This document shows positions 9,934-27,691 of a stretch of 64,000 nucleotides of DNA, piece by piece (the first letter of the stretch is position 1; each line of letters starts with the position of its first letter). The notes under the pieces are model-generated. The model did not search any database. It saw only the letters and a program-made list of their open reading frames with translations, and was not told the DNA's origin. Both the position numbers and the translations under genes were made by a program. The DNA is from Mycobacterium sp. Marseille-P9652 (GTDB lineage: Bacteria; Actinomycetota; Actinomycetes; Mycobacteriales; Mycobacteriaceae): NCBI RefSeq assembly GCF_902652685.1, contig NZ_CACRUY010000004.1, positions 102,580 through 166,579 on the forward strand. Direction: 5' to 3'.

Positions 9934-12900
9934 GGCATCGCCTCGGCCCAGGCGATATGGCCCTCGAAGCCTAGCGCTTTTGCCAGGTCGCGGTAGCGAT
10001 CCCGCAAGTGGGTGTAGGTCGCGGCATCGCCGTGCGCCCGCGCCAGTAGAGCCCGCAGCCGCAGCAGCCAGACATCGCGTATCACCAGACCCTCTTGGGC
10101 TGGCGCGGCCGCTAATCGCTCGAGCGCGGCCTCGGCTTCGGCCGCATCTCCCTCGGCCCAGCGGTCAAGCAGTGTCTCCACCACAACACCCGTCGCTGGA
10201 ATGCCCCATGCCAGCAGATGTTCCTCGCGGAACAGATGGTCAGCGTTGGCGCGCATGAGCCGTATGGCGTCATCGCGATCTCCACGGCGAGCGTTCTCCC
10301 GTGCCACGTACACGTTGACGAGCGGCAACTCGCCCAGATTGTGTCCCCGGCGTACGAACACGTCGCTGACTTCGGCCAGCAGCTTCTCTCCGCGATCACG
10401 CTCCGCGGCCGTGTCGCGGTGTACCAGCGAGCAAGGCCCAGCGTCATCCGGGCGAAAGTCAACATCTGGTTATCACCCGATCGTTCGGCAACCCGCAGGG
10501 CAGCCTCGATCTCGCGCATCGCGGAATCGTCGGGCCTTAGAACGCCATTCGTTATTACGCCGTAGATGTAGGTGACCGCCAGGGTGTAGGACGCAGGGTC
10601 GGCAGCACGGGCCAGAGCCAGCCCCTGCTGTTGGTCACCACGCCATCCCGGACGACCCAGACAGCACCGGGCAATAGCCCGCATCGCAAAGGCGACCGCT
10701 AATGGGGACCCGAATAGGAAGTTGCCCATGGAAGGATCGCCGTGGGCCAAGTCGATGACCCTTTGTGACCACTGCAGCACGTCACAATACTCAGCGCACT
10801 CAATCTTGGCGTAGATGGCCGCAGTGGACAGCCCCACGGTCAAGGTTGGATCGCCGATCGACTCGATGAGGGCCATAGCTTCCGATGCCAGCTCTGACGC
10901 CTCGCGCATCCGGTCCTGATATACGTGATCCACTACCAGCCCCGCCATGGCGATGGTCAGTGATGCCTTGTCGCCGGCGGCGGTGCATAATTGTCGCAGT
11001 TCGTCGAAGCGGGCACCGGCAACATGTTCATGGACTCGCCAGGCAATCCCGCAAAGCATGGTGCGCGGGGCGATGCGCATGGCTGCCTGGTTAGGGTCAT
11101 CGGCAGGTACCGTGTCGGCGATCTTTTGTGCGCGTTCCCAGCTCAGTCGCGCCGCATTGATGTCACGGTTGGTCGCCCAGGTGGCGGTGCGCATGTGCCA
11201 GCCGTACGCCGTGTGGAGGTCACCAGCGGCCTCTAGATGCTCGGCGATCAGCGCCGCCTTCTCCTCCGCCATCGTGGGATCGCGTGATTCGATGGCGGCT
11301 GCCACCCGCCGGTGCAGCTCCGCGCGATCCGCTTTGAGTTGGGATTCGTAGGCCACGGTGCGGATCAGCGGGTGGTGGAACACATACTCGGGGTGTCCGG
11401 TGAAGGTGATCTGGTCAATCAGCTCGCCCGCCAGCAAGTCTTCCAGGGCGGGATCAATCCCCAGCGTTTCCAGCAAGCCCCGGCTGAAGCGTGAACCGAT
11501 TACCGCCGCCGCGCTCAGCGTGCGCTTGGCTGCCGGATCGAGCCGGTCAATGCGCGCGGCGATGGTGGCCTGCAAGGTCGCGGGGACGTTCACCTCGCTA
11601 ACCTCTATCGCCGAGCTGTAAGCGCCTGGCTCACCCAGCAATACGCCGCGCTCGGCCAGGTCGCGCACGATCTCCTCGGCGAAAAACGGATTCCCGAGAG
11701 ACCTCTCGGCGATCTTCTCGCCCAGTGCACCCATCGAGGGGTCCCGGCCGAGCATCCCGGTGACCAACGCTGCGGTCTCTGAATCACTCAGCGGTGCAAG
11801 GGCGAGGGTTTGAGCACCGTGCACCCGGGCCAGCGCGCCTTCGTATTCCGGCCGGCAGCTGACCAGCACGAGCGAGGGCGTCTGCGGGATCACCCGCACA
11901 AAGTCGGCGAGCATCGACTCGCTGACCTCGTCGATCCAGTGGGCATCCTCGATGACGTAAACCCGCGGGCTTTCGCGAGCCAACGAGGCGGCGTTCACCA
12001 GCGCGGTCAACCGCCGCCGCCGCGCATCGGGGTCGATCTTGGGCAGCTCCACCTCGGGGTCGGCGACGGCCAGCAGATCGTCGAAGAGCGCCAAGTCCTC
12101 GGGATCGCCAGGGAACTGCGCCCGTATCCGCGCTCGTGCGGCCAGCGGGTCAAGGCCCGTGATGCCCGTGATCGCCCGCAGCAGCCGTGCCACCGCATGG
12201 AAGGGGACCTGGCTGGTGTGCGACTCGCAAAAGACGCTGAACACCTCCACACGCCGGGAGGCCGCCATCACCGCCACCTCGCGCACCAGACGACTCTTGC
12301 CAATCCCCGGCGGCCCGACCACACCGACCACCGCGCCGCGCCCGTCAATGGCACGTTCCAACAGGCCCTCGAGGGCCGACATTTCCCAGCGCCGACCCAC
12401 CAGGTGCGACTCCGCACGCTCGGCAGTGCGATGTCCGTCGTCCATGGCCAGCAGCCGACGGGCAGGCACCCGCTCGTTGGCACCCTTGATTGCAACCAGC
12501 TCGGATTCGCCGAGAGTCGCAGCGCCCCGCACCAGTCGTGCCGTGGACGCGCTGAGCATCACCCCACCTGGGGGTGCCACCGATTCCATCCGCTGGGCCA
12601 ACCCGACCTGCTCGCCGACCGCGGTGTAACCGAACGGACCCGAGCCGATCTCACCGGCGATCACCTCACCGGAGTTCAGCCCGACCCGTAGTTGCAGCTC
12701 CACTCCGTCGCGCTTGTAGACATCGACCGCGAGCCGTTTCGCCGCCTCCTGAATCCCCAAAGCCGCAAGGCAGGCCCGGAGAGCATGGTCCTCCAAGGCC
12801 ACCGGTGCTCCGAAGACCGCCATGATCCCGTCGCCGGTGAACTTATCCACGGTCCCGCCGTACCGCTGCACCACCACTGCGCACCGGTCGGCGAGGTCGG

Positions 12901-13099
12901 TCATGATCTCGCGCAGGCGCTCTGGTCCGACGATTCCGGCGATGTCCATGGAATGCACCACGTCGGCGAACAGGACGGTTACCTGCTTGTACTCCGCATG
13001 GGCCTCATATTTGGTGACTGGTGCGCCGCAGCCGTCACAGAATCGCGCACCCACGCGCGGCTCAGTGCCACATGTGCGGCACCCGGTCGCTGCGGTCAT
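9930..13099 (-). pseudogene. Frameshifted zinc-ribbon/cyclase/AAA ATPase/TPR signalling gene
   Basis: The main frame runs from ATG 13099, which has a GGAGGG Shine-Dalgarno upstream. It begins with a zinc ribbon (C7-x2-C10, C21-x2-C24), then a class III cyclase domain with D46, K86 and D90. An AAA ATPase follows with Walker A GPPGIGKS at 262-269, then helical repeats. Near 10405-10425 the frame is lost: family-like sequence (AERDRGEKLLAEVSDVFVRR) continues in another frame to a stop at 9930, while the original frame runs on as nonsense to 10112. Restoring one base would give about 1,056 aa. The transition-state Asn of the cyclase is Gly166, so catalysis would be weak or absent. A sequencing error cannot be excluded. 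Confidence 0.75.
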
Positions 13100-13329
13100 C
13101 CGACCCTCCGCCGCTTCCGGCCCCCGAGGTCCCGGTTCACCAGCATAGGACGCTAGGTGTTGGCGGAACAGGTCTGAACAGTTCATGCTCAGCGGCACGT
13201 CTTCGCACGTTAAGGGGACGTATCGTTGCTGCCGGCCTCTTCGGCGAGCAGGCTACGGGCCGGCCGGATGCTCGTCGGAACTCGCATGCTCATGCTGGCG
13301 GCACCTAAGCGACTGCAATGGTGTCAGCC

Positions 13330-14101: not shown

Positions 14102-15097
14102 ATGCCGGGCCCGGGAAAAGGCATTGAGGTCGAAGGCATCTGCAAGTCGTTCGGTTCGGTCACTGCGCTGCATGACGTCTCCTTCGACGTGGGCCGCGGC
14201 GAGGTCGTCGCTCTGCTCGGCCCCAACGGGGCCGGCAAGACGATCACCGTGGAGATCCTGGCGACGCTGACCAAGCCGGACCGGGGGCGCGCACGGGTGG
14301 CCGGCCACGACGTCGTCGCCGAACCGGCGATGGTGCGCCGCTCCATCATGCTGACCGGTCAGCACGTCTCGCTCGACGAGATACTCACCGGCTACGAGAA
14401 CCTGATGATGTTCGGCCGTCTGCACGGCCTGGACAAGGCAGCGGCCGGGGCCAGGGCCCGCGAACTGCTGCGGGACTTCGGCCTCGAGGACGCAGCCGAC
14501 CGCCGAGTGGCCACCTACTCGGGCGGCATGCGCCGCCGTGTGGACATCGCCTGCGGGCTGGTGGTCCGGCCCGAGGTGGTGTTGCTGGACGAGCCGACCG
14601 CCGGGCTGGATCCACGCAGCCGGCGGGCCATTTGGGAATTGATCGCCACGCTGAAGGGCGCGGGCATCGCGACGCTGTTGACCACCCAGTACCTCGAGGA
14701 GGCCGACGCGCTGAGCGACCGGGTCGTCGTGCTCGACGGCGGCAGGATCGTCGCGCAGGGCACCGCGGAGGACCTCAAGGAGCGCATCGGCGGGACCTTC
14801 TGCGAGTTCGTGCCCAAGAATCCCGCTGACGTCGGCGCCATCGCCCAAGCCCTGGGCCCGCTGCTGCCGGAGACCAGCCGGGCCGCGGTCACCCCGGAGT
14901 CCGACCGCGTGGTCATGCCCGCCCCGGACGGTGCGGACACGCTGGCCGTCGCCTTGACGCGAATCCACTCCGCGAGCATTGACTTGGCCGAAATCGCCCT
15001 GCGCAGGCCCTCACTCGATGACGTGTTCCTCTCGTTGACCGGACATGCCGAGGGCGGCGGTGCCCGAGCGGCCGACGCGGACGGGGCCGCCTTGTGA
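14102..15097 (+). CDS. Daunorubicin-resistance-type ABC transporter ATP-binding protein (DrrA-like)
   Basis: This 331-aa ABC ATPase has Walker A GPNGAGKTI at residues 40-48, signature YSGGMRRRVD, Walker B VVLLDEPTAGLDP and a C-terminal extension ending in RRPSLDDVFLSLTG, typical of the DrrA/CcmA drug and lipid exporter family. The closest remembered mycobacterial relative is DrrA of PDIM export. It powers the two membrane subunits encoded next, with which it overlaps (GTGA at 15094). The ATG at 14102 was chosen because the ABC domain begins directly after it; an in-frame GTG at 14081 is an alternative. It faces the biosynthetic operon and probably exports its product. Confidence 0.88.
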   Translation: MPGPGKGIEVEGICKSFGSVTALHDVSFDVGRGEVVALLGPNGAGKTITVEILATLTKPDRGRARVAGHDVVAEPAMVRRSIMLTGQHVSLDEILTGYENLMMFGRLHGLDKAAAGARARELLRDFGLEDAADRRVATYSGGMRRRVDIACGLVVRPEVVLLDEPTAGLDPRSRRAIWELIATLKGAGIATLLTTQYLEEADALSDRVVVLDGGRIVAQGTAEDLKERIGGTFCEFVPKNPADVGAIAQALGPLLPETSRAAVTPESDRVVMPAPDGADTLAVALTRIHSASIDLAEIALRRPSLDDVFLSLTGHAEGGGARAADADGAAL

Positions 15098-15903
15098 CCG
15101 GCGTGACCCTGACCCATCCGAAGCCGTCCGGCATGCGGCAGTGGTGGGTGTTGACCGTGCGGCTGATCGCGCCGACCCTGCGCAACGGCGAGGTGGCGGT
15201 GGGCGTGGCCGTCACGGTCGCCGTGACGGCGAGCATCTACATCCCCTTGCACCGGCTCATGGATGGGCCCGACCTGGGGATGAGCAGTTACGCGCAGTTC
15301 CTGCTGCCCCTGATCGCTTTGCAGGCCATCTCATTCGCGTCGATCTCCACCGCCTTCCGGGCCGCGACCGACTCCGTCGAGGGGATCAATCGGCGCTTCC
15401 GGTCACTGCCGGTGCCGGTGCTGACGCCGCTGGCCGCCCGGATCACCGCCAGCATCTATCGCTGCGCTCTCGGGCTGGCCGTGGCGCTGGCATGCGGACA
15501 CGTGATCGGCTTCCGCTTTCATCGCGGACCGGTCGACGCCGGGGCGTTCTGCCTGCTGGCGCTGCTCACCGGACTCGCTCTCGCCCTGCTCGGCGACACC
15601 CTCGGCACGCGATCGCGCGATCCCGGCGCGATGTCGCAGTGGTTATTGTTGCCCCAGTTGATATTCGGGTTTCTTTCGGTCGGAATCCAGCCGCTGCAAC
15701 GGTTTCCGCGCTGGATTGCGCCGATTGTCCGCAACCAACCCGTCTCCCGGATCGTCGAGGCCCTACGGGCGCTTGCCGGTGACTCCGCCGGCGGGGTGGC
15801 CCCGGTCAGCTGGTCCGTGATCGGACCGGCCCTGGCCTGGGTGGTGGGGCTCATGGCACTGACGCTGCCCTGGGCGTTCGTGGTCTACCGGAGGAGGGCC
15901 TGA
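15094..15903 (+). CDS. ABC-2 type permease (DrrB-like)
   Basis: This 269-aa integral membrane protein has about six hydrophobic segments and the ABC-2 pattern of drug/lipid exporters, including the IQPLQRFPRWIAPIVRNQP segment shared with DrrB/DrrC. It overlaps the ATPase gene by 4 bp (GTGA) and the next permease by 1 bp, so the three subunits are made together. The substrate is not readable from the sequence; the facing biosynthetic operon is the natural candidate. Confidence 0.83.
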   Translation: MTGVTLTHPKPSGMRQWWVLTVRLIAPTLRNGEVAVGVAVTVAVTASIYIPLHRLMDGPDLGMSSYAQFLLPLIALQAISFASISTAFRAATDSVEGINRRFRSLPVPVLTPLAARITASIYRCALGLAVALACGHVIGFRFHRGPVDAGAFCLLALLTGLALALLGDTLGTRSRDPGAMSQWLLLPQLIFGFLSVGIQPLQRFPRWIAPIVRNQPVSRIVEALRALAGDSAGGVAPVSWSVIGPALAWVVGLMALTLPWAFVVYRRRA

Positions 15904-16721
15904 TGACGGCACTCGCCGACGCGCTGCCCGGCGCCGAGCCACCCTCTCGAAACCCGCTGACCGAACTCATCTTTCAAACCCGGGTGCTCACCTGGAGGCT
16001 GCTCCTCCGCGCGGCCCGGACCCCCATGACGCTGGTCCACGGCGTGCTGTTGCCCGCATCGTTTCTGCTCATGCTCAAGGTCGTCTTCGGCAACTCCATC
16101 ACCGCGATCACCGGCCAGGATTCGATATACCGCAGCGTCGCGCTGGTGGCCCTGCTGTCGGCGATGTCGGGCTCCTCGACAGGCATGGTCGGCATCAACA
16201 CCGAGCGTCTCGGCGGGTTCCTCGGCCGGTTGTGGGCGCTGCCCATCCACCGCGCCGCGGGTCTGCTCGCCCGGTTGGGGGGCGAAACGGTGCGGCTGCT
16301 GTTCACCACGCTGGTCATCCTGGGTGTCGGTGTCGCCCTGGGGTTTCGCTTCCATCGCGCGGTGGGCGGCGCGGCGCTGTGGGTGGCGCTTCCGGTGGTC
16401 TTCGGGGTGGCGTTCGCGGCGCTGTCCACCACCGCAGCCCTCTACTGGCCCAGGGCCATCATGGTGGAGGCGACGCAGCCGGTGATCGTCCTCGGCGTTA
16501 CGTTCTGCACGGGATTCGTGCCGGCGAACATGTACCCCGACTGGGTTCAGCCGATGGTTCGGAACCAACCGATGTCGCTTGCCGACGATGCGATGCGCGG
16601 ACTGTCCGCGGGCGGCCCGGTGTGGACGCCGGCAACGGAATTCCTGCTGTGGTGCGGCGGCATCATCCTGGCGTGTCTGTGGCCGATCATGGTGGGCTAC
16701 CGCAGGGCCAGCACCAGATGA
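15903..16721 (+). CDS. ABC-2 type permease (DrrC-like)
   Basis: This 272-aa second membrane subunit, paralogous to the preceding one, has the same closing pattern (MYPDWVQPMVRNQPMSLADD) and six predicted membrane segments. It starts at an ATG that shares one base with the previous stop. Its own stop lies inside a hairpin shared with the convergent UbiA gene, only 13 bp away. The DrrA-DrrB-DrrC order is that of polyketide and complex-lipid exporters. Confidence 0.83.
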   Translation: MTALADALPGAEPPSRNPLTELIFQTRVLTWRLLLRAARTPMTLVHGVLLPASFLLMLKVVFGNSITAITGQDSIYRSVALVALLSAMSGSSTGMVGINTERLGGFLGRLWALPIHRAAGLLARLGGETVRLLFTTLVILGVGVALGFRFHRAVGGAALWVALPVVFGVAFAALSTTAALYWPRAIMVEATQPVIVLGVTFCTGFVPANMYPDWVQPMVRNQPMSLADDAMRGLSAGGPVWTPATEFLLWCGGIILACLWPIMVGYRRASTR

Positions 16722-16742
16722 GCGCGACACCAGCTCATCTGG
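16714..16742. terminator. Bidirectional terminator hairpin between convergent operons
   Basis: A perfect 10-bp inverted repeat (CCAGATGAGC at 16714-16723, GCTCATCTGG at 16733-16742) with a 9-nt loop contains both stop codons: TGA of drrC-like on plus and TGA of the UbiA gene on minus. There is no T-run. It is placed to stop transcription from both sides. Confidence 0.6.
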
Positions 16743-17655
16743 CGAGACCCTGGCCGACGATGCTCAGATAGAAGACGACGACGAAGAGGGTCGGCAACAC
16801 CTTGGGATGATCGCGTGCCCGGGCGTGCAGGAAACTCCACGCTGACACCAGCGGCAGGGCCGCGGTCGAAAGTGGCAGCCACGCCAGCGGCCACCGCGGC
16901 CCGGCCCATGACCACGGCATGGACACCAGGATCTCCGCGACCACCGCGAAAAGTCCGGCGCCGCAGGCCAGTAACGCACTGGCGGTGACCCCGAGCAACT
17001 CCGAGTAGGAATGCGGGTCGTCCCCCACCGCGCCCGCACCGGCCGCCCGCGCGATCTTCCTGGCGAATTCCGCATGCAGCAGTGCGCCGGTGAACACCAA
17101 CGGCACGCCGGCGAGCCGCCACCACGGCGCCTCACCGATCCCGGGACAGCCGGTCATCGCGAACCCCGTGGCCAGGAACTGCGCCGGGCAGACCGCGACC
17201 AGGTTGACGATTGCGTTGTCCCGCAGGAGGTTCCACTTGGTCTCCAGCCACCACACCGCCAGGCTGTACGCCAGGGTGGCGGCGAGCAGTGCGACGGCCC
17301 AGCGCGACACCGCGACGGCCAGGGCCAGCGCGGCGGCGGCCGCCGGAACCATCGCCGCGCGAAGTTCACCCGTGGTGATCCGGCCCTGCACCAGCGGTCG
17401 CGTCGGGTGGTGAAGCGTGTCGTAGTCGAGATCCTTCTGATCGTCGACCATCCGCATGAAGGCGCCGGCCGCCATCAGCGCCAGCGCCTTCGTAGCGGTA
17501 CCCCACGACGGTCGCCACGGGCCGGCCGATCCCGCGATGACGACGGTGAGGCTCTCGGCCGCAACCACCCACAGCGCCAGATAAACCGGGTAGACGGGGA
17601 GGCATCGCTCGACGAGGAAGGCTCCGATGCGCCCGGCGCGCGCGGAAACCGTCAT
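16735..17655 (-). CDS. UbiA-family prenyltransferase
   Basis: This 306-aa polytopic membrane protein is the last gene of the seven-gene operon. The first UbiA motif is clear: DDQKDLDYD at residues 71-79 followed by HPTRPLVQGRIT, matching the ND-x2-D-x3-D...RPL.SG.I pattern that binds Mg-prenyl diphosphate. The second Asp-rich motif is less clear (GDDPHSYSELLG). It is expected to move a prenyl or other lipid chain onto an acceptor in the membrane. It starts at ATG 17655, overlapping the AfsA-like stop (ATGA). The acceptor is unknown; here it would act on the product made by the soluble enzymes of the operon. Confidence 0.82.
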   Translation of the reverse strand: MTVSARAGRIGAFLVERCLPVYPVYLALWVVAAESLTVVIAGSAGPWRPSWGTATKALALMAAGAFMRMVDDQKDLDYDTLHHPTRPLVQGRITTGELRAAMVPAAAAALALAVAVSRWAVALLAATLAYSLAVWWLETKWNLLRDNAIVNLVAVCPAQFLATGFAMTGCPGIGEAPWWRLAGVPLVFTGALLHAEFARKIARAAGAGAVGDDPHSYSELLGVTASALLACGAGLFAVVAEILVSMPWSWAGPRWPLAWLPLSTAALPLVSAWSFLHARARDHPKVLPTLFVVVFYLSIVGQGLAR

Positions 17656-18599
17656 CGCGGGGGATCTGCTCCACCGGGGTCGTCCGCGGCGACGAAAGCC
17701 AACTCCACCGTGGCCCTCGTGTGACCGGACTGGTGCACCTCTCCGCGGAAAGCCAGCGCGTCGTCGGCGGGTGTCAGCGCGACGCTGCTCACCGCATCCA
17801 GTTCCGCGAACGAGTGGAAGTCGCATCGGAGCCGGGTCGGTCCAACGGTGGTCGCGGCCCGCGGCCCCAGCCCGGCTAGCGAAAGTTGCCGGAACGCCTC
17901 GAGAATCAGGCCGCCGGGCAGGTGGTCGAGCGGGTGGTCGAAGAACGTCGGATTGTGGATGTCCACCACGACGGGCGCACAAACCGAGCCGTCGGCGCCG
18001 ACGCGAACCGGCTCGCCGATCACCACGTTGGCCGGGCGCGTCCGGCCCACGGTCGGCGGATCGGTCGGCGACGGTTGCGCCACCGGTTCCCAGCTCGATC
18101 CGGCGCGCATGCGCAGCCAGGACTCCTCGGAAACCCAACCGAATGCGCCGGACAGCTCCATCGCCTTCGTCCCGCCCCAAGTCGCTGTCGCGGCGACGTC
18201 CAGACCATGGATCCGGCCGTGCTCGGATCGCCGAAACTCCTTTCGGACAACGGTATCGAACTCGACGTCGAGGTGTTCCGGCCCGGCACCGAGCGCGGCC
18301 AGGTCCAGAACGGAGAACTCGTAGTAACGGACCGTGTGGTGGAAACCGAGAGGCACGTCGTACAGGAGATGGCTGGCGGCGATGCACCCCTGGCGCAGAC
18401 CCTCGAGCAGGAGAAGGGGATCGTAGTAGCCCGATCGGCGGCCGGCGCAATCCGCGTGGAAGCCGTGCCGGCCGGGCAGCCGGGCGTGCGCTGTCCACCC
18501 GTTCGCGTCGGCGACCACGGAGCTGACGAAGGCTTCGGCGGGCGCATGCTTGTGCGTCAGCCGCGGCGCGACCGCGTGAAATCCGTTCTCCTCGTTCAC
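17652..18599 (-). CDS. AfsA/ScbA-type A-factor biosynthesis protein (double hotdog)
   Basis: The 315-aa protein has two hotdog repeats of the A-factor biosynthesis family. Repeat 1 carries LLLLEGLRQGCIAASH with E66; repeat 2 carries DHPLDHLPGGLILEAFRQ with E234. The spacing of these two Glu residues resembles the pair I recall as important in Streptomyces ScbA. AfsA enzymes join a beta-ketoacyl thioester to a glycerol-derived triose phosphate, the first step to gamma-butyrolactones. The ACP and acyl-AMP ligase in the same operon could supply the acyl thioester. No gamma-butyrolactone receptor gene (ArpA-like TetR) is next to it, unlike in Streptomyces. It could instead be a general acyltransferase or condensing hotdog enzyme. 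Confidence 0.8.
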   Translation of the reverse strand: MNEENGFHAVAPRLTHKHAPAEAFVSSVVADANGWTAHARLPGRHGFHADCAGRRSGYYDPLLLLEGLRQGCIAASHLLYDVPLGFHHTVRYYEFSVLDLAALGAGPEHLDVEFDTVVRKEFRRSEHGRIHGLDVAATATWGGTKAMELSGAFGWVSEESWLRMRAGSSWEPVAQPSPTDPPTVGRTRPANVVIGEPVRVGADGSVCAPVVVDIHNPTFFDHPLDHLPGGLILEAFRQLSLAGLGPRAATTVGPTRLRCDFHSFAELDAVSSVALTPADDALAFRGEVHQSGHTRATVELAFVAADDPGGADPPR

Positions 18600-18612
18600 C
18601 TTCGTCTCGCTC

Positions 18613-19416
18613 TCATCGTCGATGCATCGGCAAGTAGGACGCCTCGATCACGGTGCTGAACCAGGGATCGAGGCGAACACCACGCCGGCTCGCCTCGTCC
18701 AGGGCGCCCAACCACTCGCCCCCGGAGCGCGGGCGTTCCGTGATGCCAATTCGCGTCAGTTCGGCGCAGATCGCGTCCTGCGCTGCCGCGAGGTCACCGC
18801 TGCGGCGGTCCAGGCCCGACTCGATGCGGTCGACTATTCTGAACGCCTCGGCTGAGGCGTCCGCACCGGTCGCACACTCCGAAAGGACCTCGCTGAGCAG
18901 GGGTTCGGCGAAATAGATGCTGAGCTCGCGCAGAACATCGTCGGGGTTGTCGGGCGTGTGGATCAGATTGAGCAGGTACGTTCCGGCGCCCAGTTCATGC
19001 CGCAGCTGACCCGGTTCCCTGCGCGCCGGGTCGGCGGGCCCCTTGTCGGCGGTCAAGCGGACGGAGACGGGCTGAGCATCGTCGGGATGGGTGACGACCA
19101 GGACCACGGCCGGCGACAGGCCCGCGAGCCGGTCGGCAAGCCGTCGCCGCTCGCGGGTGGCGTCGTGCCAGTTGAAGTACCAGAGGGCGCGGATGTGCAA
19201 CCCCGTGAACCGCACGGGGTAAGCGCCGACGATTCGGTATCCATGGTCGAGAAGCCACGTGACGGCGGGCCGCATCGCGCCGGTGATGGCGGCATCGGGC
19301 TTCAGGAGCAGCAGGGCGTTCCGGCGAGCGAACGCGTCGCGGTCAATCTGCAGCGCGGCCAGGGCGTCGCACGTCTCCAGGAAGTAGGTGTCGCGGTCAT
19401 ACCGTCGGTCGGTCAT
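18613..19416 (-). CDS. Nucleoside-diphosphate-kinase-like protein
   Basis: The 267-aa protein has an NDK fold signature: ALLLLKPDA (K39) near the start and NLIHTPDNPDDVLRELSIYF with H153, matching the NxxH(G)SDS...EI..WF block around the phosphohistidine of NDK. It is much longer than NDK (about 140 aa); the extra C-terminal 100 residues are of unknown type. The catalytic His is kept but the usual GSD is TPD, so it is a divergent NDK domain that may phosphorylate a pathway metabolite rather than NDPs. It overlaps the SDR gene upstream (ATGA) and lies 13 bp before the AfsA-like gene. Confidence 0.72.
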   Translation of the reverse strand: MTDRRYDRDTYFLETCDALAALQIDRDAFARRNALLLLKPDAAITGAMRPAVTWLLDHGYRIVGAYPVRFTGLHIRALWYFNWHDATRERRRLADRLAGLSPAVVLVVTHPDDAQPVSVRLTADKGPADPARREPGQLRHELGAGTYLLNLIHTPDNPDDVLRELSIYFAEPLLSEVLSECATGADASAEAFRIVDRIESGLDRRSGDLAAAQDAICAELTRIGITERPRSGGEWLGALDEASRRGVRLDPWFSTVIEASYLPMHRR

Positions 19417-20489
19417 CGACCGCTCCTCATCAGTTGCAGCTCGGCCAGCACGTCGGCCACCGTGGGCTCCGCGCTACCCAGATAGCCTGTCTGCAAGCAG
19501 GAATCGAGGACGCGCCGCATGTATCCGGCCCCTATCGGCGGAGGCACCACGCCGAGCCGCTCGCGGGCGTTCGTGCTGTCGAAGTGTGGGCGGCGACGCA
19601 GATACGTCGTGTACAGCGACCCGACCTTGTGGAAGTACGCACGTTCGATGTCGTCCAGATCGTCGGGGCTGAAGGTGCTCGGGGGCACCAGATCGACCAT
19701 CCGGAGGCTGGGATATTCGGCGAGCACGTCACTCATCGACCGCAGGGAAACCTCGTTCGCGCCCACCGCGTGAAAGGTGTGGCCGACGTTGTCCCCGAAC
19801 CGCTCCACGGCGCTGACGACGGTGTCCGCGACATGTCCGATCGGGGACAGCGCCAGGGTGGCCGCATAGTTGCCGGGCAGTGTTCGCATCTTGCCTTCGG
19901 CGATCAGCTTCAGCACCGGGTAGATGTGCTTGTGCACACGGCTGTGACCGGTGCGGTACTCGCCCGACACGATCCCGGGCCGCACGACGGCCCACCGCTG
20001 CGGGGCCGCCCGCACGAGCTGCTCGGCCCGGAATTTGCTTCGCTCATAGTCGTTTCCGAAAGGCTGACCGATGTCGAGTTCATCCTCCCGGAACGTCCCG
20101 TCGAATTCACCGCACACGTAGGCCGTGCTGACGTAGATGATTCCGGCGTCCCAGCTCCTCGCCACCTCGAGCGCGTTCGCCGTCCCGTCGACGTTCAGCT
20201 CGGTGTACCGGCTCTCGGACAGACCGAATTCGGTCAGCGCGGCGCAATGGACAATCAGCCCGACCCGGTCGACCAGCCACGAGAACAGCTTGCGATCGAG
20301 TCCGAAACCCGGACTGCGGACATCTCCGCGCAGCACCTGCGCCGGATGTGCGGGACGGCCGTTGTTGGCGATGATGCGGACTTCGTCGTGCACCAGGGCG
20401 ACGACGTCGTGACCGCGCCCGGTCAGGCGGTGGACCACCTCGGCGCCGACGTGTCCGGCGGCTCCCGTCACGAGCACCGCCGTCTTCAC
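19413..20489 (-). CDS. NAD(P)-dependent SDR, thioester-reductase/epimerase type
   Basis: This 358-aa extended short-chain dehydrogenase has the TGAAGHVG nucleotide-binding loop at residues 8-15, catalytic Y148 and K152 (YERSK), and STAYVCG for the active-site Ser. The pattern is closest to the NAD_binding_4/thioester-reductase and epimerase groups. It follows the ACP gene with an ATGA overlap and may reduce an ACP-bound acyl thioester or the ketone of an AfsA product. The exact reaction cannot be read from the sequence. Confidence 0.8.
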   Translation of the reverse strand: MKTAVLVTGAAGHVGAEVVHRLTGRGHDVVALVHDEVRIIANNGRPAHPAQVLRGDVRSPGFGLDRKLFSWLVDRVGLIVHCAALTEFGLSESRYTELNVDGTANALEVARSWDAGIIYVSTAYVCGEFDGTFREDELDIGQPFGNDYERSKFRAEQLVRAAPQRWAVVRPGIVSGEYRTGHSRVHKHIYPVLKLIAEGKMRTLPGNYAATLALSPIGHVADTVVSAVERFGDNVGHTFHAVGANEVSLRSMSDVLAEYPSLRMVDLVPPSTFSPDDLDDIERAYFHKVGSLYTTYLRRRPHFDSTNARERLGVVPPPIGAGYMRRVLDSCLQTGYLGSAEPTVADVLAELQLMRSGR

Positions 20490-20728
20490 GACGAACCCCG
20501 TTGCGACCGAACAAGATCGACGAGATCGCCGACGGTGGACACACCGGCAAGCGATTCGGGGGTGAGCGGCGGCAGGCCGAACGCGCGCTCGAGGGCGATC
20601 GACAGCTCGAGGAAACGCAGCGAGGTGTACCCGAGGTCGTCCATGAAGGTGTCCTGAAGGTGAGCATCATCGGCGGCTGGGGCCATGGCGGCGACCAGGG
20701 CGAGCACCTCCTTCTCGGTGACGCTCAC
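20486..20728 (-). CDS. Acyl carrier protein
   Basis: This 80-aa carrier protein has the phosphopantetheine-attachment Ser as S36 in DDLGYTSLRFLEL; Thr precedes it where most ACPs have Asp. It starts at GTG 20728, overlapping the stop of the FAAL-nucleotidyltransferase gene (GTGA), and ends in an ATGA overlap with the SDR gene. The acidic helices and length are normal for a stand-alone ACP. It most likely receives an acyl group from the adjacent ligase and presents it to the SDR or AfsA-like enzyme. Confidence 0.87.
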   Translation of the reverse strand: MSVTEKEVLALVAAMAPAADDAHLQDTFMDDLGYTSLRFLELSIALERAFGLPPLTPESLAGVSTVGDLVDLVRSQRGSS

Positions 20729-23700
20729 CGCCGCTCCCCCGGTTGGGCGCCGCCACTGGCCAACAGATCCCGCGTTTCGTCGAGTTCGACGTCGGCGTCG
20801 AGATATGCCCCCATCCGCAGCCACTGGTACCCGCGGCGCAGCGTCCGCTGCCACTCTTCCCGCGACGCGAATGACGCGGGGAACGCCTCTCCCCCGGTGG
20901 CCTGCCGCACCCGCGCGACGAATGTGTCGAGTTCCGATTGGGCGCGGAGGGCTCCATCGCGATCCCGGATCGGCAGGTGCACCAGATCGCGCGCGGTCCG
21001 GGCCAGGTCGCGATGTCCGGGCACGAGCTGCTCGAGGGTGTCGAACAGCACCGGGTCGCCCGGCAGGGGGGTGATTCCCCACGCGCTGGCGAGGATGCGG
21101 ACCGCCATGACTGCTATGCGGCGCGCGCACAGCGACGTCACGCGCCATTGTTCGTCCTTGACCGCGCCGTCGAAGTCCTCGCGTGCGTTCTCCAGCACCA
21201 TGTTGGCCAGCATCAACGCACCCGCGCATTCGGCGAACGCCCTCGCGCGCAACGGGGATCGCGCGATGTCGCCGTCGGTGGGGGCGCCGTCGATCGTGAT
21301 CACCGGCCGTCGCGTCGACGGCAACGGGGTCAGGGGTCGGTCGGGCTCGCACATCGCGGCCGCCGGCCGGATCAGCCCGGCGCCGCGCCACGCCAGGGCG
21401 ATGAGCCCGTGCCGGGCGAACAGCCGGACGTGCCGGCTCGCCGCCTTGGTGGAGGCGAGCGTCTGGCCGAACACCACGCGCCGCCAGGAGTCGGCGCACG
21501 CGGCGGACAACACGAACACGTCTTCGTCCCGCACAACGTGCGTGGTGGCCCCTATCGGCCACGTCGTCACCCCGGGGACGCGCCTGAGGATGACGTTGGC
21601 GGGATCGAACGTGACCGTCGGGGCGCCGAGCCGCGCCGCCAGGTCGTGCAGCCGCGCGGTCAACTCCCGGCGGCCGCCCGCCGCGGTGGGCGCGTAGTCG
21701 AGGGCCTCGTACTCGTCGAGCAGTTCGGTGGTGGCGCGGTCGGCTTGCCTTCGCAGCCGGGCGATCTGTTGCGGGAGCCACTTGATCTCGAGGTAACCCT
21801 CGCCGTGTTCGGCGAGGAAGGCTTTCATGGCCTGCGCCAACCCTTCCCGGGCCCAGCTGGCCGCCTCGTCCTCGTGGTCGAGGGCGACGAGGGCGGCGCT
21901 GTGGCGCAGGCAGTGGGCCGACCGCTTGCGCCACCACGTGGCGGTGAGCCCCGTCGCCTCCCGATAGGAGACGATGTCCAGGAGTTCCCCGTATTGTGGC
22001 CCGACGCGCAGGGGCACGCCCCGAAGGAATCGCTGGACGCGGTTGAGCAGATCCTCCGTGACGCCCTTCAGCGAGCCGCTGTCGATCGCTGTCCTGACCC
22101 GCAGCAGCCGCTTGCGCGCCTGATCGTGTGACTGGGCGCGGATCTCGACCCGGTGGCCGTCGACGAACAACACGGTCGGCATGACCGCGTGCTTGGCCGA
22201 TCCCGGAACCAGCAGCAGGAAGTCGATGTCGGAGCAAGCATTTCCGAATCCCTCGGCCAGCGAGCCCTCGAAATGGACCGTGGCGTCGTCGGGCACCACC
22301 GCCATTGCACGCGCGCGGTCGAACAGCGCGCGCACCTGGTCGAGCTCGCGCGACGGGTGGCGGGGATCCCGGACCGCCAGCAGTTCCGACCCGGTGAGCC
22401 GCCCCGACCGCCATTGCTGCCAGAGGTATGACCGGCGGGGCTTGCCGCTCGACGTTCTCAGCAGTCCGCCGCGGGGAACGCTGATGAACCACAGTGGCGT
22501 GTCGTCACCGGCGTGCGCGCGCACGGCCGTGATTCCCGCGCGCACCGCGCCGGCGGGCATGGGCGCTGAGGACCTTTCGAACACCACCGCGACACCTGGC
22601 ACGTCACCGTCGTTGACGGCGACGGTGACGAGCCGGCCCGGGCGCAGGGCCATGGCCTCGGTCGCGGCGACATCGAGGTCCTCGGCGAACACGGTGCGCC
22701 CGTTGACTTTCAGGCTTGTTCCCATCCGGCCGAGCACATGCAGCTGCCCGTCCAGCAGGAAGCCGGCGTCGCCGGTGCGGAGGTCACCGCGCTCGAACCG
22801 TGTCGCGCCAGCCGGGTCGCCGCGGTAGCCCTCCGCCACGCACGGTCCGGAGAGGACGATTTCACCGAGAGCACCCTCGGACGCTGCGGCCCCGGACTCA
22901 TCGACGATGCGGACGGCGTGGCCGGGTATCGGCCGGCCGACGGAGACGATCCAGTCGGGTGACGGTTCGGCAGCCAGCCCGTCGTCGGTGCGCCCGAGCA
23001 CCTGGACAGGCCGTCCGGGCCGAAGCGCCGTTCGGTCGATGCGGGTCATCCGGATGGGCTCGCCGAGACGCTGGCCGGTGGCGATCAAGGTCATCTCCGC
23101 CAGTCCGTACGACGGGAGGAAGGCTGACGGTGAAAAGCCGTGGCCGGCAGTCAACTCGGTGAACGCCCGCAGGTGAGCGGGATTGATCCGGTCGGCGCCG
23201 ACCACCATCGTGCGCAGGCCGGACAGGTCGAGGTCACCGAGATCCTGTGGTGTGAGCCGGCGGCTCACGTACTCCAGGCCAAATGACGGCGAGACGGTGT
23301 GCTCCGCGAGGGCCGCCGCCTGCAGCCATCGAAGGGGGTCGCGGATGAACTGGTCCGGACGAAGCAGGCGCACCTCGTACTGGCCGGGAACGGACAGGAA
23401 CATCCCTCCGATCAGGCCCATGTCGTGATACAGGGGCAGCCACGAGGCACCGCGTTCGCCGGGCTTCGTGTCGCACATCGCATGGATGGCGCCCAGGTTC
23501 GCGACGAGATTGCGCCAGCTGACGCAGACTCCGCGGGGAGCTGCCGTCGATCCGGACGTCATCTGCAGCAGCACGAGCGGCCCGGGCTCGGCCAGCTCGT
23601 CCAGGGGAGCGACGTCCGGAACCTGGCCCAGCACAGACACATTGGGTGGCTCGGCCATGCCGGACATCGCCTTGTGCACCGTCTCGGCAAAGGCCGGTGA

Positions 23701-24060
23701 ACTGACCACGACCCGCGCCTCGGAGGCTCTCAGGATGCCGCGCAGGCGATCCGCGTAGCGGTCGGGATCCTCGAATTGCGGCGGCGTGATAGGCGTCAGG
23801 GTCCCACCCGCGGCGAGGACGCCGAACATGGTCGCCACACAGAGGCGAGACGTGGGTATCAGAACCCCCACCGTCGTGCCGGAACCGACGCCGTCGGCAA
23901 CGAGCGATCGCGCGATACGCCGCGCGTCATCCGCGAGTGCGGCATACGGGACAAAATCCCATCCGCCGTCATCGGTGGCCAGGTGGATTCCGGTGTCGGA
24001 CCGCGGCGACATCATCCACTCCCGCAGGGTGGCGGCGTCGTTCGTCCTCAGGCCCGGCAT
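20725..24060 (-). CDS. Fatty acyl-AMP ligase fused to a nucleotidyltransferase-domain protein
   Basis: The 1,111-aa protein is a fusion. Residues 1 to about 560 form a FAAL/acyl-CoA-synthetase-type adenylation domain: TSGST at 168-172, SYGLAEMTL, RTGDAGF and the C-terminal catalytic Lys in LLRTSSGK. From about 590 a polymerase-beta-like nucleotidyltransferase motif appears: G599-S600, ten residues, then D611-x-D613, with VEIR later in the place of the third acidic residue. The remaining 450 residues are helical and unrecognised. FAALs activate fatty acids and pass them to an ACP; the ACP gene is next. The start ATG at 24060 overlaps the previous gene by 13 bp. One uninterrupted frame supports a true fusion. 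Confidence 0.82.
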   Translation of the reverse strand: MPGLRTNDAATLREWMMSPRSDTGIHLATDDGGWDFVPYAALADDARRIARSLVADGVGSGTTVGVLIPTSRLCVATMFGVLAAGGTLTPITPPQFEDPDRYADRLRGILRASEARVVVSSPAFAETVHKAMSGMAEPPNVSVLGQVPDVAPLDELAEPGPLVLLQMTSGSTAAPRGVCVSWRNLVANLGAIHAMCDTKPGERGASWLPLYHDMGLIGGMFLSVPGQYEVRLLRPDQFIRDPLRWLQAAALAEHTVSPSFGLEYVSRRLTPQDLGDLDLSGLRTMVVGADRINPAHLRAFTELTAGHGFSPSAFLPSYGLAEMTLIATGQRLGEPIRMTRIDRTALRPGRPVQVLGRTDDGLAAEPSPDWIVSVGRPIPGHAVRIVDESGAAASEGALGEIVLSGPCVAEGYRGDPAGATRFERGDLRTGDAGFLLDGQLHVLGRMGTSLKVNGRTVFAEDLDVAATEAMALRPGRLVTVAVNDGDVPGVAVVFERSSAPMPAGAVRAGITAVRAHAGDDTPLWFISVPRGGLLRTSSGKPRRSYLWQQWRSGRLTGSELLAVRDPRHPSRELDQVRALFDRARAMAVVPDDATVHFEGSLAEGFGNACSDIDFLLLVPGSAKHAVMPTVLFVDGHRVEIRAQSHDQARKRLLRVRTAIDSGSLKGVTEDLLNRVQRFLRGVPLRVGPQYGELLDIVSYREATGLTATWWRKRSAHCLRHSAALVALDHEDEAASWAREGLAQAMKAFLAEHGEGYLEIKWLPQQIARLRRQADRATTELLDEYEALDYAPTAAGGRRELTARLHDLAARLGAPTVTFDPANVILRRVPGVTTWPIGATTHVVRDEDVFVLSAACADSWRRVVFGQTLASTKAASRHVRLFARHGLIALAWRGAGLIRPAAAMCEPDRPLTPLPSTRRPVITIDGAPTDGDIARSPLRARAFAECAGALMLANMVLENAREDFDGAVKDEQWRVTSLCARRIAVMAVRILASAWGITPLPGDPVLFDTLEQLVPGHRDLARTARDLVHLPIRDRDGALRAQSELDTFVARVRQATGGEAFPASFASREEWQRTLRRGYQWLRMGAYLDADVELDETRDLLASGGAQPGERR

Positions 24061-26765
24061 GACTGCTGCCCTTCGAGAACCACGACGCGACCGGTCGCAC
24101 CGTCCACGCTGACCGTCATGCCGGTGCTGAGGGCTTTGGTCAGGCCGTCGATCTGCACGACGGTGGGTATGCCGAGTTCGCGCGCGATGATCGCCACGTG
24201 GGTGAGGGGCGACGCGCGTTCGATGAGCAGCGCCGAGGCGAAGGGAAGTGCCGCCGCCCAACTCGGCTCGGTCCGGTACGCCACCAGAACGCCGCCGGAG
24301 AACTCCTCGGGCTTCTCGACGACCTCCACCCGGCCGATCACCATTCCGGGACTCGACGGTGTGCCGGTGAGGACCGCACCGGTGGGCAGGTACTCCGGAT
24401 CCGTGCGCTGGCGCCAGCCGGCCAGTTCCAGCTCCCTGCGCGTATAGCGCGATCCGCTCGTGGTGAAACGGACGGGCGCCGCAAAACGCCGGTAGCTCCC
24501 CTCGAGGGCCTTGCGTTTGGCGACCACGGTTCGCGCCTGTTCACAGTTCATGGCGCCCTCGTACACTCCGAAGAGTTCGTCGAGACGCAATTGGAAGATG
24601 TCGGTGCGGCTGTCGATGATGCCGCGCTGTTCGAGGTCGCGCCCCATTACCGCGGCAAGCGATTTGATGATTCCGAAGCCGCGCGTGCGGCAGAACCGAA
24701 GGTGCTCGCGGTGCGTCGCCGCCCGCTGGATTTTCTTGCGCAGCGCATCGAAAACCTTGCGGCGCGGCCCGTGCAGGTGGGAGTCGAGGTAGTCCTCAGC
24801 CTGCTCGTTCACCCGTCGGTTGTCGTCGGCGGTCTGGACCCTCAGCATCTGGAAGAGGCCCGCCGGGTCGTGGCGCAAGTCCGGCGCTTCGAGCTTGAGT
24901 TCGTCGCGGCAGCGATAGCCGAAGTCATCGATGTAGTCGTCGATCTTCTGGAGCAGCCGGTGCCATTCCGGAGCGTCCGATGTCTTCGCTTGCTCGACGA
25001 GGCGGGGGTAGGCAAGCGCCGGGTCGACCGAGTCGACGAAATTCCGCAAGGCCGGAACGGTGTCCACGTATTCCGTGATGGCGACCAGCGCCCGGGCGGG
25101 TTCGACGGATTCGATGTCGACTCCGGGATTGAGCAGGGCGAATCCGACCCACTCGGGTGCCCTGGGCAGGAAGACCTTCATAAGGCCGGCTAGCAGGCCG
25201 ACCGACGTCAACAGGATGGCGTCGAGGACCATCATCGGGCCCCAGATGTCGGCCACCTCGGTGTGTGTCCGCCGGAAGTGCCGGTACGCGCGGGCCCCGT
25301 CGAGGCTGGAGACGTCCGACAGGCCTTGGCGCGCGATGAATTCCGCAAAGGTCGTGTCGAAGTCGCGAACCATCGAATCGATCGAGACGAACCGCCGGGC
25401 ATAGGTGAGCGCCGTGCGCGTCCGCGAGACCAGCCGGGCGGCAGGTGACCGGAATACGAATGGGCGCAGTCGGTTTGCCACCACCCGGTCGAGCGGTTCG
25501 CTGACGCCCAGCGCTATTTCGAGCACACGCCGATTCAGCGTGTATCCCGGCGCGATGCCCACCATGCGGTACCAGTGCAGGAGGTTGTAATAGACGTGGC
25601 CATAGAACTGGCCGAGCATCACCGGCAACCACGACTCCATCTGCTCGAGTTGGGCACGCGGCACTTTCAGGCTGCGGGCGTAGGACCGGTAGACGTCGCC
25701 GTAGAGCTGACGCGCCACGGTGAACGTCAAGGGCGACGTGACCCCGGAGAAGCTTTCGATGATGTTCGAGTTGTCCCAGATACGCAGCTCACCGGGGCCG
25801 ACCGCCTCACCGAGATGCTCTGCGGCCAAACCGATCTCTTGGCTGAGGGTGGTGATCGGACGGGTCTGCAGCAACCACGTGGTGGACCCGTCGTAGGCCC
25901 ATTCCACGTCTTGTGGACCACCGAGATGCCGCTCGAGGCGCGGCGCCAGCTCGACGAGTGCCTCCCTGAGCGCCGGCCCGACGGCCGATTCCCGTTGCCG
26001 CTCTTCGGGAACGGCTTTCGTGCCGACGCCGCCCGACGCGTTGGTGGTGACCATGAAGGGCTTGGTGACCACCGTTTCGTCGAGCACCTGATGCGTTCTC
26101 TTGTCGACCACAACGGAGTCGGCATCGACGATTCCGCGAACCAGGCCCTCGCCGAGGCCGAGCACCCCGTTGACCAGGATGTGGTCCGATGAGCCCCCGA
26201 CCGGGTCGACGGTGAACATCACCCCGCTGCTCACGGGTTCCACGAATTCCTGGACGATCACGGCGAGGGCAACGTCGCCGAAGCCGAGCCCGCGGACGTG
26301 GCGGTAGTGGGTCACCCGCGGCGAGAACGCCGACGCCCAGCACATCCGGACGGCGTTCTCGACAGCCTCGATTCCGCTGAGGTTCAGAAAGCTGTCGAAC
26401 AGCCCGGCGTAGGAATGGCGGGACTCGTCGTCGTGCCGGGGCGACGAGCGGACGGCCACCCGCGGCGCGCCCACATGATCTACGGCGGCGGCAATGTCCT
26501 CTTTGATCGCGGCCGCGATGGGCGACTCGCGCAGGACCGACTCGGCGTGGGCCGCCTCCCGCAGGCGTTCGGCCAAAGTCATGGGTGCCGCGCTGGCGCA
26601 CACGCCAGAAGCGGCCAATGCGGCTTCGAACGCATCCGTTCCGAGGATCGCCCACCGTGGCACCGCAAAGCCGGCCGCGCTCAGCCGGTAGAGGCTGCGA
26701 CCCTTGACACCCGCAAGCGCGCTGCTTCGGTCGTCCGTGACCCTCTCGCCGGTGAGGACGGTCAT
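24048..26765 (-). CDS. PEP-synthase / rifampicin-phosphotransferase-like ATP-dependent dikinase
   Basis: The 905-aa protein is the first gene of the operon. The N-terminal ATP-grasp domain (about 15-310) shows AVRSSPRHDDES, AGLFDSFLN, SSGVMFTVDP and DVEWAYD..LLQTRPIT. A long helical middle is not conserved with PEP synthase. The C-terminal swivelling domain has the phosphohistidine H856 in SPLTHVAIIARELGIP. There is no PEP-binding barrel, so the layout is that of rifampicin phosphotransferase (about 865 aa): ATP to phospho-His to a small hydroxyl substrate. It may phosphorylate a pathway intermediate or the antibiotic; operon context favours the former. About 286 bp upstream (26766-27051) carry no gene and must hold the operon promoter. 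The frame is open further upstream; ATG 26765 was chosen where similarity begins. Confidence 0.78.
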   Translation of the reverse strand: MTVLTGERVTDDRSSALAGVKGRSLYRLSAAGFAVPRWAILGTDAFEAALAASGVCASAAPMTLAERLREAAHAESVLRESPIAAAIKEDIAAAVDHVGAPRVAVRSSPRHDDESRHSYAGLFDSFLNLSGIEAVENAVRMCWASAFSPRVTHYRHVRGLGFGDVALAVIVQEFVEPVSSGVMFTVDPVGGSSDHILVNGVLGLGEGLVRGIVDADSVVVDKRTHQVLDETVVTKPFMVTTNASGGVGTKAVPEERQRESAVGPALREALVELAPRLERHLGGPQDVEWAYDGSTTWLLQTRPITTLSQEIGLAAEHLGEAVGPGELRIWDNSNIIESFSGVTSPLTFTVARQLYGDVYRSYARSLKVPRAQLEQMESWLPVMLGQFYGHVYYNLLHWYRMVGIAPGYTLNRRVLEIALGVSEPLDRVVANRLRPFVFRSPAARLVSRTRTALTYARRFVSIDSMVRDFDTTFAEFIARQGLSDVSSLDGARAYRHFRRTHTEVADIWGPMMVLDAILLTSVGLLAGLMKVFLPRAPEWVGFALLNPGVDIESVEPARALVAITEYVDTVPALRNFVDSVDPALAYPRLVEQAKTSDAPEWHRLLQKIDDYIDDFGYRCRDELKLEAPDLRHDPAGLFQMLRVQTADDNRRVNEQAEDYLDSHLHGPRRKVFDALRKKIQRAATHREHLRFCRTRGFGIIKSLAAVMGRDLEQRGIIDSRTDIFQLRLDELFGVYEGAMNCEQARTVVAKRKALEGSYRRFAAPVRFTTSGSRYTRRELELAGWRQRTDPEYLPTGAVLTGTPSSPGMVIGRVEVVEKPEEFSGGVLVAYRTEPSWAAALPFASALLIERASPLTHVAIIARELGIPTVVQIDGLTKALSTGMTVSVDGATGRVVVLEGQQSCRA

Positions 26766-27051: not shown

Positions 27052-27654
27052 CTACGCTTCCGGCCCCGGCAGTAACCGCCGCTCACGCACGGGCTCGGCG
27101 AGGAGCCAGATGTGCAGCTGTTCCCGCCCGACCAGGCGGCAACGGTGCGTGCTCGCCAATTGCCTGGCGGCCTTGGTGAATCCGCCGTTCGTCACCACCA
27201 CGGTCTGCTGGCAGCGGTGGTGGGCCGCGCCGGACACCACCTGCTGGACGGCGGCGACGCCGACCGCCCTGGCGAACCGCTTGCATTGCACCGCCATGCG
27301 GATGCCGTCCCTGGCGGCGATCAGGTCCACCCCGTAATCGCCCGTGCTGGCGGTGTGGGTGACGCTCCAGCCCCTGGTCCGCAGCTGCGCGGCGACGAAT
27401 TCCTCGAACTGCAGGCCCGACATCTCGTCTACGGCGGCCAGGCCGGAGTCGGCAAGCTTCCGGTCGCGCCTCCGCTGTCGCCCGGCCCGGTATCGGTCCC
27501 GCCGCACCGAGAGCCACACCAGGAGGACGACGGCCAACATGAGGCCGCCCAGTCCGGCCGCGAATCCGGTGAACACGCCGCCGGTGGCCCGCTGCGTGAA
27601 ATACCAAGGGAGAGCGAGCCCCACCACCAGCAATGACCCGAGAGCCTTCTCCAC
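27052..27654 (-). CDS. Membrane-anchored Mrr-type restriction endonuclease-like protein
   Basis: The 200-aa protein starts at GTG 27654. Two transmembrane helices (LLVVGLALPWYF and LMLAVVLLVWLSV) come first, then a basic linker and an Mrr_cat nuclease domain. The D..QxK core is seen as DYGVDLIA followed by VQCKR, with the family helix VAAVQQVVSGA and the NGGFTKAAR segment. Such membrane-tethered Mrr-like proteins are common in actinobacteria; some Mrr enzymes cut modified DNA, but a defence role is not shown here. It lies between the biosynthetic operon and the P450 gene, same strand. Confidence 0.78.
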   Translation of the reverse strand: MEKALGSLLVVGLALPWYFTQRATGGVFTGFAAGLGGLMLAVVLLVWLSVRRDRYRAGRQRRRDRKLADSGLAAVDEMSGLQFEEFVAAQLRTRGWSVTHTASTGDYGVDLIAARDGIRMAVQCKRFARAVGVAAVQQVVSGAAHHRCQQTVVVTNGGFTKAARQLASTHRCRLVGREQLHIWLLAEPVRERRLLPGPEA

Positions 27655-27691
27655 GCCGCCGAAACTACCGCAGCGGTATGACAAACGGGCG

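Follow-up and report, generated by a model that had tools for sequence, protein, structure and literature searches.

The window analysed here, 64,000 nucleotides of a contig of Mycobacterium sp. Marseille-P9652, carries a string of seven minus-strand genes (16735-26765) that encode, in this order, a dikinase, a fatty acyl-AMP ligase (FAAL) fused to a nucleotidyltransferase-like half, an acyl carrier protein (ACP), a short-chain dehydrogenase/reductase (SDR), a kinase resembling nucleoside diphosphate kinase (NDK), an AfsA-like gamma-butyrolactone synthase and a membrane transferase of the UbiA superfamily. Gene ends were taken from open reading frames and inspection of start codons. The dikinase and FAAL genes overlap by 13 base pairs (bp), and the FAAL/ACP, ACP/SDR and SDR/NDK-like pairs by 4 bp each; a 13-bp gap separates the NDK-like from the AfsA-like gene, which in turn overlaps the UbiA gene by 4 bp. 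A DrrABC exporter on the plus strand (14102-16721) faces the string, the end of DrrC lying 13 bp from the UbiA stop. A first-pass annotation had described overlapping genes that converge on an exporter, and this arrangement is confirmed to the base by reading frame ends and start codons. Pfam supports the dikinase, AMP ligase, ACP, SDR, NDK, AfsA and ABC exporter assignments, with UbiA slightly below its cut-off.

Is this string a biosynthetic unit or an accident of gene order? An AfsA search of 297 genomes of the same genus gave a match in 18, and a close orthologue (53-100% identity over almost the full length) in 12, the window's genome included. We examined the neighbourhoods in the 11 other close-orthologue genomes and around eight distant AfsA matches. 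All seven genes are present in the same order and on the same strand in every one of the 12 carriers (12/297 genomes), with proteins 53-76% identical to those of the window in the 11 other clusters. This constancy rules out an accidental string and identifies the seven genes as one biosynthetic unit with the AfsA enzyme at its core (hereafter type I); the separation of the genes in conserved neighbourhoods, which the first-pass annotation had named as evidence to the contrary, is seen in none of the 12. Pairwise distances for the seven gene parts, computed for 10 of the 12 genomes (L032 and L033 left out), correlate closely (45 pairs, r 0.87-0.98). In each of the seven gene trees, genome G032 is the sister of the window; both results would also be expected from a shared species tree alone.

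With a profile of the NDK-like kinase, matches were found in 18 genomes out of 397 searched in the order and in eight out of 394 searched in the class, five being common to both. From 18 NDK-like carriers outside the genus we took 20 neighbourhoods. The complete set is present in four, of which three belong to one sister genus and the fourth to another family, where AfsA is placed behind UbiA. One more, in genome G755, has six functions of the set without FAAL/ACP; a relaxed search of its 20-kb stretch found neither FAAL nor ACP, and its nucleotidyltransferase is a separate, stand-alone protein. Another has the dikinase and the NDK-like kinase only. Three NDK-like genes were seen within 16 kb of a single genome (L077, 304-15843), with SDR-like and nucleotidyltransferase-like matches nearby. 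A contig search turned up a single relative, in Gordonia jinhuaensis (27% identity).

As a control, the analyst picked, from 96 AfsA matches outside known type I loci, 40 neighbourhoods around further AfsA genes within the class. AfsA, dikinase and UbiA occur together in one of these 40, some of which are cut at contig ends and one of which (L139) has an AfsA that the AfsA model did not re-detect; this single case, L132, is a different type of cluster. Among weak AfsA matches beyond the 40, those in G938 and G992 belong to clusters of a further type (type II, described below) with dikinase and UbiA, and those in G864 and G1011 have neither nearby.

The exporter was also found linked to the cluster in a second genome. 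In G032, the closest relative, the ten genes DrrA-DrrB-DrrC-dikinase-FAAL-ACP-SDR-NDK-AfsA-UbiA form a run in a single direction; 11 bases separate the DrrC match from that of the dikinase, and the Drr proteins are 72-82% identical to those of the window (Table 1). The exporter is thus upstream and co-directional in G032, whereas it lies at the opposite end and faces the string in the window. That it was kept despite this rearrangement is good evidence that it belongs to the cluster, and the G032 arrangement speaks against a chance neighbour. The first-pass view that the cluster has its own exporter therefore stands for the linkage and not as a general rule, since DrrABC adjoins the cluster in two of the 12 same-genus genomes and the 20-kb stretches around the other ten clusters gave zero Drr matches. 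Among the matches listed, these ten have a glycosyltransferase right behind UbiA, together with a P450 encoded on the other strand, both named by Pfam in L028 and traced in the remaining clusters by homology; the sister-genus genome G316 has a P450, a glycosyltransferase and an ABC-2 membrane protein. DrrA and DrrB of the window score above their NCBIfam cut-offs, and DrrC below (TIGR01248, 139.7 against 165.65). Another DrrA (55%) is encoded elsewhere in the genome.

The active-site residues that could be checked are intact. The dikinase combines an ATP-binding with a swivel domain, and the His of its SPLTH motif aligns with that of chain 5fbs, a rifampin phosphotransferase, an enzyme phosphorylating a hydroxyl; a domain search for a phosphoenolpyruvate (PEP)-binding domain found none. 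The same layout is that of rifampin phosphotransferase and of PigC/RedH. The protein reaches the cut-off of the NCBIfam model NF004881 (PRK06241.2-2; 884 bits against 883), but not those for rifampin phosphotransferase (NF041857, 260.3 against 999), RedH (330 against 1350) or PigC (273 against 1300). For the FAAL half, the best of 81 NCBIfam models is the fatty acyl-AMP ligase NF006624 with 298.3 bits, below the subfamily cut-off of 600. The other half of this protein has a sub-threshold Pfam match to a nucleotidyltransferase model (16.1 against 21 bits), which all 16 homologues match at E<=0.1 (best 2.7e-5), and the motif GS-x9-SDxD is invariant in 16 of 16. Its profile gave a best E of 0.018 against the PDB, and an AlphaFold model from the single window sequence was unusable, with a mean pLDDT (predicted local distance difference test) of 41. 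The carrier Ser of the ACP is kept in 10 of 10 aligned sequences.

The SDR was expected to act as a reductase; its highest scores are with thioester-reductase-like families (NAD_binding_4 being the best Pfam match). In the PDB its best matches are MxaA (4u7w), presumably a thioester reductase, and a domain of a polyketide synthase, with the reductase domain of AusA ranking lower. YxxxK is invariant in 10 aligned sequences. Since the SDR is likest to thioester reductases, in a comparison made without a butenolide reductase, its substrate may be the FAAL-loaded acyl chain and not the lactone. In the NDK-like kinase the Lys of KPDA and the His of NxxH are invariant in 12 sequences, the His aligning with that of 8j07; the Pfam cut-off is reached, but not that of the NCBIfam NDK equivalog (29.8 against 155).

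A search of the genome for AfsA genes found none besides the AfsA-like gene of the string. The product of this gene exceeds the PF03756 gathering score of 24 over two stretches and keeps the DHxxDH...EAxRQ motif; its profile gave zero PDB matches at E<=0.1. UbiA scores 31.4 bits with PF01040 (gathering score 34.2). UbiA prenyltransferases usually carry two Asp-rich motifs: here the first is kept and the second is replaced by E-x-A-R-K...Y, invariant in 13 aligned sequences. A search of the PDB at E<=1 returned a sole match, digeranylgeranylglyceryl phosphate synthase. UbiA, for which the addition of a prenyl chain had been suggested, may or may not have this role, given ExARK at the second motif and no relative of the type II polyprenyl synthases in the whole window or the 16 other type I stretches.

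Table 1. Features of the cluster and its surroundings (window positions; scores in bits, with cut-offs where given)
Feature	Position	Strand	Evidence
Adenylate-cyclase/AAA protein, candidate regulator (uncertain)	10112..13198	-	Homologue beside 4/20 AfsA neighbourhoods; Pfam
DrrA exporter ATPase	14102..15097	+	TIGR01188 365.5 (312.45); 73% to G032 copy
DrrB exporter membrane subunit	15094..15903	+	TIGR00025 177.1 (146.9); 82% to G032 copy
DrrC exporter membrane subunit	15903..16721	+	Pfam/NCBIfam; 72% to G032 copy
UbiA-superfamily membrane transferase	16735..17655	-	First motif R..D...D...D...RP; ExARK...Y at second-motif site
AfsA-like gamma-butyrolactone synthase, two hotdog domains	17652..18599	-	PF03756 102.1, two stretches
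NDK-like kinase, divergent, C-terminal extension	18613..19416	-	PF00334 39.2 (27)
Extended SDR, thioester-reductase-like	19413..20489	-	NAD_binding_4 top Pfam; PDB 4u7w (MxaA); YxxxK
Acyl carrier protein	20486..20728	-	PF00550 34.1 (20.8); carrier Ser
FAAL-type AMP ligase (roughly residues 1-550) fused to nucleotidyltransferase-like half	20725..24060	-	AMP-binding E 7.6e-48; invariant GS-x9-SDxD
Dikinase, PPDK_N and PEP-utiliser mobile domain	24048..26765	-	Pfam; swivel His (SPLTH) aligned to 5fbs; NCBIfam NF004881

Part of the type I set recurs in two other types of cluster. Type II clusters (L036-L042) occur in seven genomes of the same genus, two of which (G286 and G289) also hold type I. 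With genes named from L036 and assigned by homology in the other loci, they comprise AfsA, an ICMT-like methyltransferase, a dikinase, a P450, a UbiA-like protein and two polyprenyl synthases, accompanied by MmpL in six of the seven; as a whole they resemble a prenylated-lactone pathway. They have in common with the window AfsA, the dikinase (28-30% identical) and UbiA (27-30%), the last with a similar second motif, and gave zero matches to FAAL, ACP, SDR or NDK at E<=1e-4. Type II-like sets (L178-L190) were also found in the family of G826 (f31, at a guess Micromonosporaceae), where the dikinase query matches 18 of 260 genomes: among 14 dikinase neighbourhoods, AfsA is present in 13, ICMT in 12 and UbiA in 10.

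The third type is the control case L132 (2212-14852), from genome G677 of genus g102, which we guess to be Streptomyces. It shares AfsA, dikinase, UbiA and an ACP with the window, but instead of FAAL, SDR and NDK it has two ketosynthases, HAD and aldo-keto reductase genes, DUF6182 and a possible P-loop kinase (sub-threshold); this cluster could be cyclipostin-like. One UbiA sequence read from each of the two other types gives E-F-G-K-K and E-L-G-R-K at the second motif. AfsA, dikinase and UbiA are thus the part common to three cluster types that otherwise differ, which makes the AfsA-derived lactone, or a group joined to it, the most likely target of the dikinase and UbiA. The simplest inference is that the remaining genes of each type supply different partners.

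From the gene set, its order and conservation, the intact motifs and the linked exporter, all of them observed, we infer the substrates, the order of steps, the product and the role of UbiA. We tentatively propose, as the likeliest reading though one that falls somewhat short of probable, a dedicated pathway to an exported gamma-butyrolactone lipid with a phosphate and a second alkyl chain, functionally closest to salinipostins and cyclipostins. AfsA enzymes use dihydroxyacetone phosphate and a beta-ketoacyl thioester. Here AfsA would join a beta-ketoacyl chain to dihydroxyacetone phosphate to give a butenolide phosphate; because the cluster has no ketosynthase, this chain would come from ordinary fatty acid synthesis, and a second acyl chain, a plain one, is probably the contribution of FAAL and ACP, FAAL activating a fatty acid and loading it on the ACP. 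A condensation of glycerol and fatty acid derivatives is indeed described for AfsA enzymes (PMC5735094). The SDR would release the ACP-bound chain reductively as an aldehyde or alcohol. The dikinase, NDK-like kinase and nucleotidyltransferase might phosphorylate or activate an alcohol or phosphate group, of the released chain or of the lactone, and the UbiA-type enzyme, with its diphosphate-binding motif kept, could join the two halves in the membrane. DrrABC would export the product; in sister species, the glycosyltransferase and P450 may tailor it instead.

Several observations weigh against this proposal. No product is known for the cluster, the nucleotidyltransferase has no role accounted for, and a non-allylic alkyl diphosphate would be a poor UbiA donor. 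In type II clusters the dikinase is present although neither an NDK-like nor a nucleotidyltransferase gene is detectable. The SDR does not reach the cut-off of the thioester reductase model TIGR01746 (111.5 against 213.35 bits) and is retained in G755, in which FAAL and ACP were not found, so it may not be tied to a FAAL-loaded chain. Of the 20 NDK-like neighbourhoods outside the genus, 14 lack the set, stray SDR, nucleotidyltransferase or Drr matches aside, and dikinase and NDK-like genes are paired without AfsA or UbiA in G559 (L070, 9561-13083) and G1169 (L191, 8835-14482); these kinases may constitute a separate module. Ten of the 12 same-genus clusters have no exporter beside them. Finally, clusters of the salinipostin and cyclipostin type are the obvious ones to compare with this cluster, whose description as undescribed is unproven.

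Could the product be a prenylated butyrolactone or furan? UbiA would then be a true prenyltransferase, placing a prenyl chain from primary metabolism on the AfsA product, and the dikinase would activate a carbonyl for condensation, as PigC and RedH do, leaving no lasting phosphate. The sole PDB match of UbiA fits this scheme, as do the two polyprenyl synthases that accompany AfsA, dikinase and UbiA in 7/7 type II loci and the ranking of the dikinase scores (RedH 330, PigC 273, rifampin phosphotransferase 260 bits). However, the RedH and PigC scores lie far under the cut-offs, the 17 type I stretches, whole window included, hold no relative of the type II polyprenyl synthases, and nothing remains for FAAL, ACP, NDK and nucleotidyltransferase to do; we hold this scheme to be rather unlikely. 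In a more specific form of the phospho-lactone pathway, FAAL, ACP and SDR would make a fatty alcohol, possibly allylic, that the dikinase and NDK-like kinase convert to an alkyl diphosphate, and a UbiA subclass with the E-x-x-R/K-K motif would use it to alkylate a phosphate or hydroxyl of the AfsA butyrolactone. This fatty-alcohol counterpart of prenyl salvage, which would yield the first mycobacterial phospho-butyrolactone lipid, is frankly speculative, and we consider it improbable.

The intact AfsA core would also suit a classical gamma-butyrolactone, a cell-to-cell signal read by a receptor, for which the SDR would be a butenolide reductase and the phosphate enzymes would handle triose phosphate only; a signal of this kind is known in Rhodococcus (PMC5735094). 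We regard this as unlikely: the window has zero ScbR-type genes at E<=0.001 and none of the 104 ScbR-model matches of the genome, the best ScbR-like genes being on another contig (C5) with 136.5 against a cut-off of 150; AfsA stays under the ScbA/BarX equivalog cut-off (NF041195, 162.8 against 200 bits); and dikinase, UbiA, FAAL and NDK exceed the needs of such a signal. Mycobacterial FAALs and DrrABC commonly serve envelope lipids, and the genome's second DrrA would likewise suit a structural role, in which a phospholipid-like outer-membrane lipid with an AfsA-derived backbone is exported by a DrrABC paralogue in the manner of phthiocerol dimycocerosate (PDIM) and is not a secreted bioactive. 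Such a lipid is decidedly unlikely, as the patchy distribution (12/297 genomes) and the replacement of the exporter by a glycosyltransferase and P450 in 10 of 12 clusters look like specialised metabolism.

Some neighbouring genes deserve mention. The cyclase-AAA gene adjoins the exporter, and homologues of its product (55-65% identical) accompany four clusters among 20 neighbourhoods, two of each type: L024 and L027 have one near the type I cluster, and in L038 and L039 it stands immediately next to the type II cluster. The protein may regulate both kinds of cluster, a role that is suggested and not shown. There are three such genes in its own genome at E<=1e-60, itself counted. Of its 1028 residues, paralogue matches cover those up to about 925, so that an interruption of the gene is possible. 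A gene resembling Mrr-type restriction endonucleases (27052-27810) is immediately upstream of the dikinase, followed by a P450 (27692-29128) with 22-29% identity to P450s of the relatives' AfsA neighbourhoods. Both were considered as cluster members and rejected, as tblastn with them gave zero matches on the 20-kb G032 contig. A tRNA-SeC gene at 49239-49333 suggests that this mycobacterium may use selenocysteine. The PPE family, which is mycobacterial, has 36 matches in the genome against none in 14 control genomes, which bears out that the genome is mycobacterial.

How new is this cluster? The salinipostin cluster of Salinispora (spt1-9) is said to contain an AfsA homologue, spt9, that forms a butyrolactone bearing a phosphotriester group and a long alkyl chain, and spt-like clusters are reportedly widespread in actinomycetes, according to papers of 2020 and 2021 on the salinipostin cluster. 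The gene set of the window may correspond to that of the salinipostin cluster. No Salinispora spt locus was recognised among the genomes searched with dikinase, UbiA and AfsA. In the genus of G841 the dikinase has a match in 18 of 40 genomes, mostly over the N-terminal third only; in G826 AfsA adjoins genes that look by eye like ketosynthases; and a UbiA search in 12 AfsA-bearing genomes, a set without positive control, found none. A literature search of titles and abstract starts gave no report of the gene set in mycobacteria; it left subscription papers largely uncovered, so that absence from print is not shown. According to a 2016 review of actinobacterial quorum sensing, clear evidence for a mechanism is lacking in mycobacteria (PMC4748050), so an AfsA-type product there would be immediately testable.

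Compared with known systems, the AfsA-like protein belongs to the same synthase family, with the same motifs, as AfsA, ScbA and GblA of the A-factor, SCB and RJB systems, but the window has no receptor gene, adds six extra enzymes and falls under the ScbA/BarX cut-off. The dikinase shares domain layout and swivel His with rifampin phosphotransferase and PigC/RedH, and does not reach their curated cut-offs. The AfsA, dikinase and UbiA trio offers a genome-mining handle on possible phosphate or alkyl addition to such lactones. Bicyclic enol-phosphate lactones with long alkyl esters do exist, and a common origin with A-factor has been proposed for them (PMC6681047); structures of salinipostins and cyclipostins, with a suggested A-factor link, are described (PMC6681047, PMC11095149), and cyclipostins and their synthetic analogues act against mycobacteria (PMC6681047, PMC5603573). 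If our proposal is correct, some mycobacteria would produce and export a lipid that belongs to the general class of the cyclipostins: in salinipostins and cyclipostins a lactone is combined with a phosphate and a long alkyl chain (PMC6681047), which is the very make-up we propose for the product of this cluster.

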